Under the pieces are notes generated by a model. It worked only from the letters and a program-made list of their open reading frames with translations, had not been told where the DNA came from and ran no database searches. From Pseudanabaena yagii GIHE-NHR1 (GTDB lineage: Bacteria > Cyanobacteriota > Cyanobacteriia > Pseudanabaenales > Pseudanabaenaceae), in assembly GCF_012863495.1 (NCBI RefSeq), contig NZ_JAAVJL010000002.1, positions 374,501 through 438,500 of the forward strand: 64,000 bases of DNA. Direction: 5' to 3'. The translations under genes were made by a program, and so were the position numbers. This document shows positions 4,410-58,633 of the stretch, in pieces (positions within the stretch are counted from its first letter, which is position 1; each line of letters starts with the position of its first letter).

Positions 4410-4500
4410 TATAGCAGTCCTAAATCATTTGTAGATTTTTGGGTTTGTGGAAGCGCACCCCGAAGGGGTGCGCTTCCACAAACCATTTAGGATTGCTATA
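4410..4500. mobile_element. 91-bp MITE-like element with 16-bp terminal repeats
   Basis: The ends TATAGCAGTCCTAAAT and ATTTAGGATTGCTATA are inverted repeats with one mismatch. Inside is a perfect 20-bp-arm hairpin (4442-4461 and 4465-4484, loop GAA) with the core GTGGAAGCGCACCCC. The same core recurs at 14669-14707 and 60031-60061, and a variant at 47360-47400. It has no coding capacity and is probably a non-autonomous element in the gap after xisI. Confidence 0.7.
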
Positions 4501-7198: not shown

Positions 7199-7310
7199 GG
7201 GACTTGCTATTAATTAAAGTACCTGTGGCTTCGACTCTGCTCAGCCAACGTTAGCTGAGCAGAGTCGAAGCTAGATAACTTTGATGGGACATTTTTTATC
7301 CGCAAGTCCC
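7199..7310 (-). mobile_element. MITE-like element family A, copy 1
   Basis: This is a 112-bp non-coding element with ends GGGACTTGC and GCAAGTCCC and an internal hairpin (7228-7245 with 7254-7271) whose 18-bp arms pair perfectly. It is in inverted orientation relative to the copies at 45008, 53539 and 55493. It is flanked by CTA on both sides, a possible 3-bp target duplication. Confidence 0.75.
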
Positions 7311-25211: not shown

Positions 25212-26681
25212 ATGCCTCAAATAGCCAGTAATTCTGGAAAAAATCGTGAAATATTATCGGGACAGATCGCTTTAGTCTGGCATCGGCGCGATTTGCGAAT
25301 TGATGACAATCCTACTTTAAGTGAGGCGATCTCACAGGTGGGAGAACAAGGGATCGTGATCGGTTTATTTATATTTGATCCTGATATTCTCGATGATGGC
25401 GTGACCGAGGGCAGCAAGGTTGACTTTATGCTTGGTTGTTTGCGCGAGTTGCAAGCTAACTATCGACGTTTGGGCAGCGAATTGCTATTCATGTATGGGC
25501 AGCCCGTGCAATCGATTCGTGAACTGGCAAAAGCAATTAATGCAAGTCATGTCTTTTTTAACCAAGATGTCGAACCCTTTGCGATTAAGCGCGATCGCGA
25601 AGCGACTCAAGCTTTACAAGAAATCGGTGTCAAGGTTCAAAGTTTCATTGATATTGGCTTGATAGCTCCCGATGCGATCGCTACGCAATCAGGAGAACCC
25701 TACAAGGTCTACACCCCCTTTTGGCGAAATTGGCAAAGTAAGTCAAAGCCTCAACCCTTTACATCTCCTCACAAATTAACAGGTTTAGCAAATTATGAAA
25801 ACCTCCCTGTAATTCCTTTACCAAGCTTGCGTGAACTAAAATTCATCAATGACATTACCTTACCGAAAGCAGGTGAAGCCGCAGCTTTAGAACTATTAGA
25901 AACCTTTTGTGATGGTAATGGAATTTTGCGTTATCAAACGGAACGTGATTTTCCTGCCCATGCGGGTACATCGACATTGAGTACCCATTTGCGCTTCGGG
26001 ACAGTTGGCATTAGAAGAGTATGGGAAAAAGCGATCGCGGCTGAGCAGCTAGTGCGTAGTGAAGAGGATGCCGCAGGAATTACTACATGGAAACAGGAAC
26101 TAGCATGGCGGGAATTCTATCAGCATGTTCTCTTTTACTTCCCTGAATTAGAAACAGGAGCCTATCGTCCCCAAATGCGAAACTTCCCTTGGGATGATGA
26201 CGAAGAGAAATTTACTGCATGGTGTGAAGGTCGCACGGGTTATCCGATTGTCGATGCAGCAATGCGGCAACTTAATCAAACGGGCTGGATGCACAACCGT
26301 TGTCGGATGATTGTCGCCAGTTTCTTAACTAAGGATTTGATAATTAATTGGCAATGGGGCGAACGCTATTTTATGCAGAAGTTGCTAGATGGTGACTTAG
26401 CCGCAAATAATGGTGGTTGGCAATGGAGCGCATCTAGTGGCATGGATCCCAAGCCTTTGCGGATTTTTAATCCTGCATCACAAGCCCGCAAGTATGATCC
26501 AGAAGGTGAGTATATTTTGCGGTGGTTGCCTGAATTACAGGGATTGACTACAGCCGAGCTTTTGAGTGGGAATATTCCACCACATCAATGCAAAAAGCGC
26601 GATTATCCTCTACCAATTGTGGATCACAATATGCAGCAGCAAAAATTTAAGAAGCTCTATCAGGATTGTAAAACTAACTAA
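25212..26681 (+). CDS. phr: Deoxyribodipyrimidine photo-lyase
   Basis: Blue-light repair of cyclobutane pyrimidine dimers. The N-terminal antenna domain (LVWHRRDLRIDDNPTLSEAI, about residues 18-160) should bind 8-HDF, as in other cyanobacterial class I enzymes. The C-terminal FAD domain has WKQELAWREFYQHVL, GYPIVDAAMRQLNQTGWMHNRCRMIVASFLTKDLIINWQWGE and NNGGWQWSASSGMDPKPLRIFNP, the classical CPD photolyase signature with FAD and lesion-binding residues. The length of 489 residues is standard. It could in principle be a cryptochrome-like paralogue, but the conserved NNGGWQW region argues for a repair enzyme. It converges on argB; the last codons lie inside a palindrome. Confidence 0.96.
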   Translation: MPQIASNSGKNREILSGQIALVWHRRDLRIDDNPTLSEAISQVGEQGIVIGLFIFDPDILDDGVTEGSKVDFMLGCLRELQANYRRLGSELLFMYGQPVQSIRELAKAINASHVFFNQDVEPFAIKRDREATQALQEIGVKVQSFIDIGLIAPDAIATQSGEPYKVYTPFWRNWQSKSKPQPFTSPHKLTGLANYENLPVIPLPSLRELKFINDITLPKAGEAAALELLETFCDGNGILRYQTERDFPAHAGTSTLSTHLRFGTVGIRRVWEKAIAAEQLVRSEEDAAGITTWKQELAWREFYQHVLFYFPELETGAYRPQMRNFPWDDDEEKFTAWCEGRTGYPIVDAAMRQLNQTGWMHNRCRMIVASFLTKDLIINWQWGERYFMQKLLDGDLAANNGGWQWSASSGMDPKPLRIFNPASQARKYDPEGEYILRWLPELQGLTTAELLSGNIPPHQCKKRDYPLPIVDHNMQQQKFKKLYQDCKTN

Positions 26682-26723
26682 ACAGAAGAATGCCCCCTTT
26701 GGGGGCATTCTTCTGTTTAGTTA
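26675..26723. repeat. Perfect palindrome spanning phr and argB stop codons
   Basis: The 23-bp arms (26675-26697 and 26701-26723, loop TTT) include the last phr codons and its TAA at 26679-26681; the far end is the argB TAA. The core is AATGCCCCC-TTT-GGGGGCATT. It is a probable bidirectional terminator. Confidence 0.85.
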
Positions 26724-27590
26724 AAGAGCTGTTTCAGAAGCGACAATCATAGAACCAACGCCACTGTTAGTAAAGATTTCCAGTAATAGAGAATGTGGTA
26801 CGCGCCCATCGACAATATGTGCAGCTTTTACCCCCTGCGCTAGCGATCGCACACAGCACTGAACTTTAGGAATCATGCCACCACTGACGACATTTTCATT
26901 CATCAGTTCTCTAGCTTTGCTGATCGTCAAACTGCGATAGAGCGTACTGGGATCTTTGTAATTATGGAGAATACCTGCAATGTCGGTGAGGAGAATCAAT
27001 TTCTCCGCTCCCAAAGCGGCGGCGAGTTCACCAGCGACGGTATCCGCATTGATGTTGTAGGACTGACCTGTTTCATCGGTCGCGACACTAGATACAACGG
27101 GAATATGTCCTGCTTCGAGTAGGGTTGAGAGCAGACCGATATTAATGCCACTGACTTCACCCACAAAGCCGATCGCATCATTGCCTTGGGGACGCGCACG
27201 AATCAGATTGCCATCCTTACCGCATAGACCGACACCAGAGCCACCTGCGAGGTTAATCATTTCTACGATCTGCTTGTTGACTCGACCAACTAGCACCATT
27301 TCCACAACTTCCATAGTGGCGGCATCGGTAACCCGCAATCCATTGATAAACTGTGGCTCGATGTTCAGTTTGGTGAGCCATGTATTGATTTCGGGCCCGC
27401 CACCATGCACTAGTACTGGGCGCAATCCCATAAATGACATCGTGACGACATCGCGGATCACGTCCTGCCGAAGATTTTCTTCTTTCATTGCCGCCCCACC
27501 ATATTTGACGACAATGGTACGCCCCGCAAATTGCTGCATGTAGGGCAAAGCTTCACTTAGAACCTGAACGCGATCGCTGTCTGTTAGCAT
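26721..27590 (-). CDS. argB: Acetylglutamate kinase
   Basis: Phosphorylates N-acetyl-L-glutamate, the controlled step of arginine synthesis. Motifs are [15 protein letters not shown] (ATP site), [14 protein letters not shown] (substrate), [12 protein letters not shown], and the C-terminal part [41 protein letters not shown]. The N-terminal helix ([19 protein letters not shown]) is the element that makes arginine-inhibited hexamers, and in cyanobacteria the enzyme binds the PII protein GlnB; the C-terminal signature agrees, though PII contact is family knowledge. The length of 289 residues is normal. No other arg gene is in the window. Confidence 0.97.
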
Positions 27591-38317: not shown

Positions 38318-38342
38318 TGACTAGGATTATTGGGAATTGAAG

Positions 38343-39992
38343 ATGACGATCATTGCGATTGATTTTGGTACAAGTAATACGGCGATCGCCATACTCACTT
38401 CTCAAGGCGATCGCGATATATCTACACCCAAAACTTTATGCTTTGATGACATTTCCTGCGATTTTGCTACTCCTGACGGTTTCGCTTGTTTAGTCCCCAG
38501 TTTGGTCTATGTCAGTGGTAAGCAGCAATTTTTCTTTGGTAAACAGGCGGAAAAACAAGCAGGAATACAACTCCAATCGCAGGATCACTCAAAACGTCTA
38601 TTTCAAGGCTTTAAGCGGGATATTGTCGCAAATTTCCGATCGCCTGATCGCGAGATTGATGGTGAACGTTACGATGTGGAAGCGATCGCTGAAATCTTTT
38701 TGATGGAACTATGGCAACGCTTACGATTACAAAATATTGAACCGGCCCAATTAATCTTAACCGTTCCTGTGGGGGCTTTTGAGGCATATCTCAACTGGTT
38801 TCATAGCTTTGCTGACAAGATTCAAGTTCCAAATCTGCAAATTATTGATGAATCTACGGCGGCTGCCTTAGGCTATGCCGTGACCCGTCCCAATGCGTTG
38901 GTATTGGTAATTGATTTTGGTGGTGGAACCTTAGATCTCAGTCTGGTGCGTACTGCCCCAATTAATGAAAAATCTCAAGTTACCAAAGCCGAAGCGATCG
39001 CGAAATCCGATGCTTATATCGGCGGGATCGATGTTGATCGCTGGATTACTGAACATTTTTTGCGTCAATGGGGAATGGCGCGATCGCAAATTAGTGAAGT
39101 TGATTGGCTAAAAATTTTAAAACTTGCGGAACAGATCAAGATTAAATTGTCGCTGGTTACAGAAGTAACGGAAACTTGGCTAGATGAGCAGATGATCTCC
39201 CATGAAATGAGTCTGACGCAAGCGGAATTGACTGATATTCTCGAACAAAATCAAATGCTCGAACAGTTACGCGAAGCAATTGATGAAGTGCTAACGCTTG
39301 CTCTCAATAAAGGCACGAGCAAGGCAGCCATTGAGCAAGTTCTCTTAGTTGGGGGAAGTTGCCAAATTGTCGCAATTCAGCAATTAATCATTTCCTATTT
39401 CGGTAAATCTAAAGTCAAACTTGGTAAACCTTTTGAAGCAGTTGCTCATGGAGCCTTAGCTTTAGGACAGGCGATCGCGATCGAAGACCATCTCCGCCAT
39501 AGCTATGCGATTCGCCTGTGGGAACCCTACCTCAATCAATATTCTTTCTATACCCTATTTGAGAAGGGGGTAAAATATCCTTGTCAGCGTCCCGAACCAC
39601 TGATCCTACAAGCCGCGATCACAGGACAAGCAGAAATCTGGCTAGACATCGGCGAAGTTGCGGATATTTCCCAAGCAGAAGTTACCTATGATGGCTCAGG
39701 ACGAATGACCAGCAGTCAACTATTAAAACAGTCAGATTTTCGTTCCCTCGCAATTAATAGCAGAAATGCCCCTATACATGACTCTAGCAACAACTATCAG
39801 GTGATTAATCAGGAGCAAGCTGAGCCAAGTCAGGTTTGTATTGCTCGCCTCGAACCCCTCGGACAATTAGGTAGCGATCGCATTGCTGTGGATTTTGCCA
39901 TTGATGAGCGCCGTGTCTTAATTGCCACGATTAAAGACTTACTTACTGACAAATTGTTAATAAATCAGCAAGCGATCGCTAAATTAGAATAA
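38343..39992 (+). CDS. Hsp70-family ATPase (DnaK-like, divergent)
   Basis: Actin-fold ATPase with the Hsp70 phosphate-1 motif (IIAIDFGTSNTAIAIL), phosphate-2 motif (VLVIDFGGGTLDLSLV) and adenosine motif (VLLVGGSCQIVAIQQLI). The nucleotide-binding domain takes residues 1 to about 390; the C-terminal 160 residues are much shorter than the peptide-binding and lid domains of DnaK and do not resemble them. It is one of the non-canonical Hsp70 relatives of cyanobacteria; the client is unknown. The ATG at 38343 is preferred to the TTG at 38337. The J-domain/TPR gene 1.3 kb upstream could supply a partner (inference). The last three codons and the stop lie in a long palindrome. Confidence 0.93.
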   Translation: MTIIAIDFGTSNTAIAILTSQGDRDISTPKTLCFDDISCDFATPDGFACLVPSLVYVSGKQQFFFGKQAEKQAGIQLQSQDHSKRLFQGFKRDIVANFRSPDREIDGERYDVEAIAEIFLMELWQRLRLQNIEPAQLILTVPVGAFEAYLNWFHSFADKIQVPNLQIIDESTAAALGYAVTRPNALVLVIDFGGGTLDLSLVRTAPINEKSQVTKAEAIAKSDAYIGGIDVDRWITEHFLRQWGMARSQISEVDWLKILKLAEQIKIKLSLVTEVTETWLDEQMISHEMSLTQAELTDILEQNQMLEQLREAIDEVLTLALNKGTSKAAIEQVLLVGGSCQIVAIQQLIISYFGKSKVKLGKPFEAVAHGALALGQAIAIEDHLRHSYAIRLWEPYLNQYSFYTLFEKGVKYPCQRPEPLILQAAITGQAEIWLDIGEVADISQAEVTYDGSGRMTSSQLLKQSDFRSLAINSRNAPIHDSSNNYQVINQEQAEPSQVCIARLEPLGQLGSDRIAVDFAIDERRVLIATIKDLLTDKLLINQQAIAKLE

Positions 39993-40041
39993 ATTTTCAA
40001 AAGGATTGCAAAGCAATCCTTTTGAAAATTTATTCTAATTT
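39981..40041. repeat. Perfect 61-bp palindrome extending into the Hsp70 gene
   Basis: The 29-bp arms (39981-40009 and 40013-40041, loop AAA) include the last three codons (Lys-Leu-Glu) and the TAA of the Hsp70 gene. No gene lies on the other side, so the right arm is a copy of coding DNA. Confidence 0.9.
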
Positions 40042-40062: not shown

Positions 40063-40111
40063 AGAGAAATTTTTGAAAGCGTGGCTTTGCCACGCTTTCA
40101 AAAATTTCTCT
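40063..40111. repeat. Perfect palindrome, 23-bp arms, TTT loop
   Basis: The arms 40063-40085 and 40089-40111 share the core AGCGTGGC-TTT-GCCACGCT with the palindrome at 19587-19633. The remaining part of the 374-base gap to 40366 is AT-rich with no visible gene; it must hold the promoter of the downstream pair. Confidence 0.85.
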
Positions 40112-47359: not shown

Positions 47360-47400
47360 GTTTGAGGAAGCGTATCCCTATGGGATACGCTTCCTCAAAC
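47360..47400. repeat. Perfect hairpin, 19-bp arms, TAT loop
   Basis: GTTTGAGGAAGCGTATCCC and its complement; a variant of the GAAGCGCACCCC hairpin in the 4410-4500 element. The preceding TATCGCAATCCTAAAA resembles that element's terminal repeat, so this may be a relic of another copy with one end lost. Confidence 0.75.
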
Positions 47401-55492: not shown

Positions 55493-55603
55493 GGCTCTTG
55501 CGGATAAAAAATGTCCCACCAAAGTTATCTAGCTTCGACTTCGCTCAGCTAACGTTGGCTGAGCGGAGTCGAAGCCACAGGTACTTTAATTAATAGCAAG
55601 TCA
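55493..55603 (+). mobile_element. MITE-like element family A, copy downstream of sulP
   Basis: It starts GGCTCTTGCGG right after the sulP TAA stop codon and ends AATAGCAAGTC. Its right end overlaps the left arm of the next palindrome. Confidence 0.8.
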
Positions 55604-55652
55604 TAAAGTTTAGAGAGAGCCGCTAAGCGGCTCTCTCTAAACTTTATGACTT
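55598..55652. repeat. Perfect palindrome, 26-bp arms, TAA loop
   Basis: The left arm (from AAGTCATAAAG) starts inside the element's terminal repeat; the right arm includes the last two codons and the stop of the 68-residue gene. The core is GAGAGCCGC-TAA-GCGGCTCTC. Confidence 0.85.
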
Positions 55653-58311: not shown

Positions 58312-58363
58312 AAATTCCAAAAGATAGGTACTGCTTTGCTCTACCACCTATCTTCTGGAATTT
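58312..58363. repeat. Imperfect hairpin after M48-like gene
   Basis: AAATTCCA-AAGATAGGT and ACCTATCTT-TGGAATTT arms with internal mismatches around TGC-TTT-GC. It is the first of four inverted repeats that fill the gap 58307-58633. Confidence 0.65.
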
Positions 58364-58455: not shown

Positions 58456-58500
58456 GGGCTTTGGGAGAGGGTTTGCTATGCAAACCCTCTCCCAAAGCCC
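58456..58500. repeat. Perfect palindrome, 21-bp arms, TAT loop
   Basis: The arms start GGGCTTTGGGAGAGGG and end CCCTCTCCCAAAGCCC. It shares its last four bases with the next palindrome. Confidence 0.85.
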
Positions 58501-58541
58501 AAAAGTAAAAGCCTTGCTACGCAAGGCTTTTACTTTTGGGC
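58497..58541. repeat. Perfect palindrome, 21-bp arms, TAC loop
   Basis: GCCCAAAAGTAAAAGCC begins the left arm; the core is CCTTGC-TAC-GCAAGG. It overlaps the preceding palindrome by GCCC. Confidence 0.85.
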
Positions 58542-58633
58542 TTTTAAAATTTGTCAGCTTAACCTGAACTGACGTTATTTAGCACTTTTCGTTGCTATAG
58601 TGTTGATCTCAACGATAGAGTAAGCAAAAGTTA

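Follow-up and report, generated by a model that had tools for sequence, protein, structure and literature searches.

Perfect gene-end hairpins in Pseudanabaena as probable products of local template switching

Local template switching very probably both builds the perfect hairpins that lie at the 3' ends of Pseudanabaena genes and keeps them perfect, a reading to which we assign a probability of roughly 0.85. It is based on a window of 64,000 nucleotides (64 kb), the whole stretch of DNA that was analysed, which spans positions 374501-438500 of contig C2 in the Pseudanabaena genome G000, and on genomes of related strains, whose comparison shows that local sequence is copied, that loops are inverted and arms homogenised, and that in one clear case the arms have grown.

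The hairpin at the end of an Hsp70-like gene

An Hsp70-like ORF of 551 aa (38337-39992, plus strand) ends within the left arm of a 61-bp perfect hairpin (39981-40041, plus strand), whose arms of 29 nt each (39981-40009 and 40013-40041) are 100% complementary and enclose a 3-nt loop, AAA. The left arm opens with the gene's final three codons and its stop, Lys-Leu-Glu-stop (AAA TTA GAA TAA, 39981-39992, plus strand), and the non-coding outer right arm (40031-40041, plus strand, TATTCTAATTT) complements this coding end. The sequence-only reading had described both the palindrome and its overlap with the gene, and the pairing of the arms and the extent of the ORF confirm it. Perfect arms of at least 29 are expected only about 7e-12 times in 64 kb. 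The hairpin folds into a full-length stem as DNA and also as RNA; it is followed by a T-rich tail, but its stem has few G-C pairs, and every match in an Rfam search fell under the gathering score, hence no known structured RNA was recognised. A DNA search across the whole genome that holds the window (G000) matched the hairpin to itself alone, as a single copy. A second perfect hairpin lies downstream (40063-40111, plus strand, arms 23/23, loop TTT) and belongs to a dispersed family, GAAATTTTTGAAAGCGTGGC-TTT-..., present at about 40 further places in G000, where a short conserved tail often follows the hairpin.

The gene end AAATTAGAA is common to many relatives, as had been predicted, and in G002 and G021 no hairpin overlaps it. 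G023 and G025 harbor a hairpin of the same origin at the end of the gene, with arms of just 20 bp, and carry TATTTGGATTT at the place of the outer right arm. A gapless comparison of 70 bases with these two genomes reveals a changed loop and two substitutions in the left arm, each with its counterpart in the right arm. Moreover, the right flank reads CTA in G000 versus TGG in G023 and G025, CTA being exactly the three bases that lengthen the pairing in G000 into the Leu and Lys codons. All these differences (paired substitutions, loop and three-base extension) are in register, and the simplest reading of the hairpin would be a templated replacement in register. The pairing could have been lost in G023 and G025 rather than gained in G000; growth in G000, as opposed to decay in the other two, is a polarity that we infer and do not regard as proven.

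Other gene ends and the abundance of perfect hairpins

Two further gene ends in the window, cited by the sequence-only reading as similar cases, are as it described them. Between the convergent genes phr (photolyase-like, 489 aa, 25212-26681, plus strand) and argB (acetylglutamate kinase-like, 26721-27590, minus strand), a perfect hairpin (26675-26723, plus strand, arms 23/23, loop TTT) holds the stop codons of both genes; that of argB (26721-26723), which forms the right base of the hairpin, had been overlooked. The other hairpin (55598-55652, minus strand, arms 27/27, one unpaired base) contains in its right arm the last two codons and the stop of a minus-strand gene. Both are imperfect in G023, where the last residue of phr is Ser, not Asn, and where the coding arm of the second hairpin is conserved and its non-coding arm imperfect.

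In G002 and G021, two different species, the end of phr sits 17 nt inside a hairpin with 27-bp arms and reads GTAAGGTTTTTCAAAAC-TAA and GCAAGGTTTTTCAAAAC-TAA, respectively. A synonymous Cys codon, TGT in G002 and TGC in G021, is mirrored outside the gene, where the far non-coding arm ends in CCTTAC in the former and CCTTGC in the latter; the loop is also inverted, GTA in G002 versus TAC in G021. It had been predicted that orthologous loci would share a core and that the non-coding arm would follow each strain's own coding strand, and the Hsp70, phr and 55598 orthologues agree with this, the mirrored phr codon satisfying the prediction directly. The C-termini encoded by phr differ widely across the genus, and the tail VFQN of G002 and G021, located inside the hairpin arm, is unlike the tails of their relatives. 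Thus, the idea that the right arm was copied from a left arm constrained by coding largely stands among the orthologues, whereas its premise of a fixed coding template does not always hold, since phr tails are variable. The VFQN tail suggests that hairpins can rewrite protein ends, and template copying may run into a gene as well as out of one. As judged from these alignments, the mechanism put forward earlier, in which arms are copied from local sequence, is supported.

Such hairpins are abundant. The window contains 24 perfect ones with arms of at least 12, most commonly with 3-nt loops, whereas order-2 Markov shuffles of the window yielded no arm above 11. At the same arm length, the sampled Pseudanabaena (G000, G002, G018 and G021 to G025) harbor 20 to 60 perfect hairpins per 100 kb, against 2 in 359 kb from other genera of Pseudanabaenaceae and 8 in 280 kb from other cyanobacterial families, the overall density in other cyanobacteria being about 2 per 100 kb. 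Mismatches are absent from 479 of 555 near-perfect hairpins drawn from six genomes (G023 and G025 each counted). Over 480 kb of G023, 35 of 146 distances between a hairpin and a gene 3' end are below 20 nt, compared with 3 of 120 for 5' ends, and 16 hairpins overlap a gene 3' end. The hairpins at one gene end are often unrelated in sequence between species, which suggests that insertion or replacement also contributes.

Repeated elements occur in the window and beyond it. A dispersed family, GTTTGTGGAAGCGCACCC-NNN-..., is present at 4442, 14669, 47360 and 60031; G000 has at least 25 copies of it, and several relatives have many. Its member at 47360-47400 (plus strand, arms 19/19, loop TAT) has an orthologue in G023 with a nearly unchanged left arm and a strongly mismatched right arm; it was dropped as a candidate for de novo birth, because the family is dispersed and the G023 orthologue may have decayed. 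A quasipalindrome with an 8-nt centre (GCTTCGACTTCGCTCAGC / GCTGAGCGGAGTCGAAGC) is repeated at 7228, 45047, 53578 and 55532 and, unlike other hairpins, retains the same mismatch in three copies. The perfect hairpins at 58456-58500 and 58494-58544 overlap by 7 bases, which serve as right base of the first and left base of the second. Finally, G023 (contig C1, near 945183-945274) contains a MITE-like element about 110 bp long, which is bounded by TATAGCGGTTTTCA...TGAAAACCGCTATA and encloses two hairpins; one of its insertions differs between G023 and G025.

Changes between two close genomes and their possible causes

G023 and the metagenome-assembled genome G025 align over 394 kb with 0.58% substitutions. 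Among 126 eligible loops in orthologous hairpins, 93 are unchanged, 28 are exactly inverted and 5 are otherwise changed, while point mutation would be expected to produce about 0.03 exact inversions; after correction, loops flip about 50 times as fast as single sites are substituted (about 50 flips per hairpin per substitution per site). A spacer that is exactly inverted is a hallmark of template switching, as is the homogenisation of arms. The arms show 18 one-sided changes and 2 two-sided matching ones, the latter against about 0.02 expected, and one matched one-base indel is present in both arms of a hairpin; together with the phr codon, the two-sided changes and the paired indel represent such homogenisation. 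Loop inversion is moderately significantly associated with arm change (9/31 versus 11/97, Fisher p = 0.025), as a single switch event predicts.

A clear case of growth is found in G025 (C97:8112), where the hairpin has 30-bp arms and G023 has a 7-bp core, CCCCCTT-AAA-AAGGGGG. This core is followed in G023 by GAGAATTTTCTTCTTCCCCC, whereas the right arm of G025 continues with ATTGAGGGGGATCACTAACACCT, the complement of its own left flank. The copied segment includes AGGTGTTAGTGATC, which the G023 sample contains once and G025 twice, so the source of the copy is the single-copy left flank. A multi-base change that is the reverse complement of nearby sequence, a further hallmark of template switching, is thus seen here, and also in the TGG/CTA difference at Hsp70. 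The proposal that arms grow at gene ends is borne out in so far as growth from core to arm is observed between these two genomes, while at Hsp70 itself the direction is not formally polarised. A second growth case of 10 bp at 58345 was demoted, because it concerns a dispersed family and gene conversion from another copy is possible, and a hairpin of G023 at 443522 without counterpart in G025 was set aside as not templated.

Selection on RNA alone would see in these hairpins intrinsic terminators or 3'-end stabilisers, with stems kept by compensatory point mutations. A stem-loop shortly 3' of the stop codon, as expected of a terminator, is indeed present, hairpins crowd gene 3' ends, the focal locus has 11 terminator-like sites against 0.5 in shuffles, and no Rho gene was found above the cut-off in the 24 genomes searched. 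As the sole cause, such selection is nevertheless largely refuted, and we consider it quite improbable: the exact loop inversions bring no evident RNA advantage and are implausible by point mutation, and stems extend well beyond what a terminator requires. A tail with at least 6 T in its 12-base window was seen in 93 of 265 oriented hairpins. The mismatches are also telling, as RNA pairs G.U only and a terminator should tolerate it above A.C on the sense strand, whereas 22 A.C and 18 G.U were counted. Selection for RNA pairing being invisible in the mismatch types, the perfection of the hairpins is mainly a DNA-level product. Their location at 3' ends and the lack of a detected Rho suggest that selection probably retains them there because transcripts end or are protected at these sites.

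Mobile palindromes (MITE- or REP-like) could alternatively have been inserted at gene ends with both arms, supplying the last codons of the gene. Several hairpin families are dispersed in tens of copies, the phr tail of G002 and G021 differs from those of relatives, and different species have unrelated hairpins at the same place, all of which fits such insertions. However, the focal hairpin is single-copy, in contrast to its multi-copy neighbour at 40063-40111, and with no other copy of the 61-bp unit a mobile origin is refuted in this case. The explanation is very unlikely more broadly, as the coding arm at Hsp70 is genus-wide even without an overlapping hairpin, the growth in G025 copied a single-copy flank, and insertion does not invert loops. 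Hardly credible, finally, is an artefact of assembly or sequencing, in which short-read graphs leave the orientation of a loop flanked by identical arms undecided, and false palindromes come from fold-back reads. Loop orientation is ambiguous in principle where arms exceed the graph word size, and G025 is a metagenome assembly, but arms are below 20 bp (down to 13), and so under usual word sizes, in 12 of the 22 pure inversions, and both arm growth and the mirrored codon differences would be left unexplained. Assembly error, named by the sequence-only reading as a possible refutation, is moreover unlikely because many independently made assemblies of one genus contain the hairpins, which other cyanobacteria almost entirely lack.

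Proposed mechanism and comparison with known systems

Local template switching would start from a short core hairpin present during DNA synthesis, typically a stem on a 3-nt loop (for example GC-NNN-GC). At the core, the nascent strand would pair with the opposite arm, take it as template and then switch back. A switch within the arms would invert the loop or correct a mismatch, whereas synthesis past the base of the stem would copy the flank and so lengthen the arm, up to a microhomology at which the strand returns; if that flank is a gene end, the new arm would complement the last codons, as at Hsp70. The replicative character of this mechanism and the enzymes behind it are inferences. Reciprocal recombination across a 3-nt spacer seems physically implausible, and arm-to-arm strand switching during synthesis explains flips, corrections and growth together, as reported for other organisms (PMC8794818, PMC8604942).

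A feature of the genus that may be relevant is a second SbcD gene, found above the cut-off in all Pseudanabaena genomes searched but one. A second SbcC-like gene is present in most of them and adjoins the second SbcD in G000 (C2:552112-556345), where the pair has a transposase-like ORF of 280 aa as its neighbour. In other genera of the family a single full SbcC-like gene was seen, mostly with a single full SbcD, and a search of 146 genomes gave relatives of the second SbcC at E <1e-150 in only 5 others. Loss of SbcCD was rejected as a cause of the hairpins, since SbcD is found throughout and Pseudanabaena carries an additional pair. We tentatively suggest that Pseudanabaena may have made hairpin template switching routine and genus-specific, perhaps via hairpin processing altered by the second SbcCD-like pair, so that gene-end hairpins would be continually created locally, kept perfect and rewritten, generating terminators and occasionally C-terminal codons.

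The origin and upkeep of long perfect stems is an old question, to which template switching is a proposed answer, with events that are rare in most genomes. Dozens of events between genomes 0.58% apart mean that one cyanobacterial genus suffices to measure rates, direction, microhomology and enzymes, and indicate a route by which intergenic hairpins come to mirror, and perhaps alter, the last codons of genes. Our literature searches found no description of such hairpins in Pseudanabaena. Quasipalindrome correction in bacteria was reportedly treated by van Noort et al. 2003.

That study is cited on quasipalindrome correction in PMC10434271, and assays of this process in E. coli appear in PMC7202029. 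The likeness is that strand misalignment turns imperfect palindromes perfect, and the earlier work reportedly concerned mutation hotspots or genome statistics, whereas here genome comparison reveals that arms extend past the previous stem and reach into the ends of genes. The available part of PMC13155455, on perfect inverted repeats at transcript ends in 118,019 genomes, similarly reports that bacterial inverted repeats are enriched 3' of genes and that spacers have more substitutions than arms; its commonest bacterial spacer is 4 nt, versus 3 nt in Pseudanabaena, and that part neither mentions loop inversion nor names cyanobacteria.

Long perfect inverted repeats also overlap coding sequence in the mitochondria of Nematomorpha (PMC6649704), where both arms are coding and far longer, while in Pseudanabaena one arm usually lies outside the gene. 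In Saccharomyces coding DNA, closely related strains differ by homogenised arms and exactly inverted spacers, which were ascribed to template switching (PMC8604942); ten spacer inversions were found there, as compared with 28 in 126 hairpins over about 0.4 Mb in one Pseudanabaena genome pair. A similar kind of event is the template switch that gives rise to RNA hairpins and preserves them (PMC8794818); single events, some of them in bacterial rRNA genes, make reverse-complement arms, fix stems and invert loops. Those concern rRNA and microRNA stems over long evolution, whereas Pseudanabaena, one genus, has hundreds of gene-end hairpins per genome, with arms that grow into coding sequence. Template switching and quasipalindrome correction are thus known in kind, and what is unusual here is their intensity: they are frequent, genus-wide and reach gene ends.
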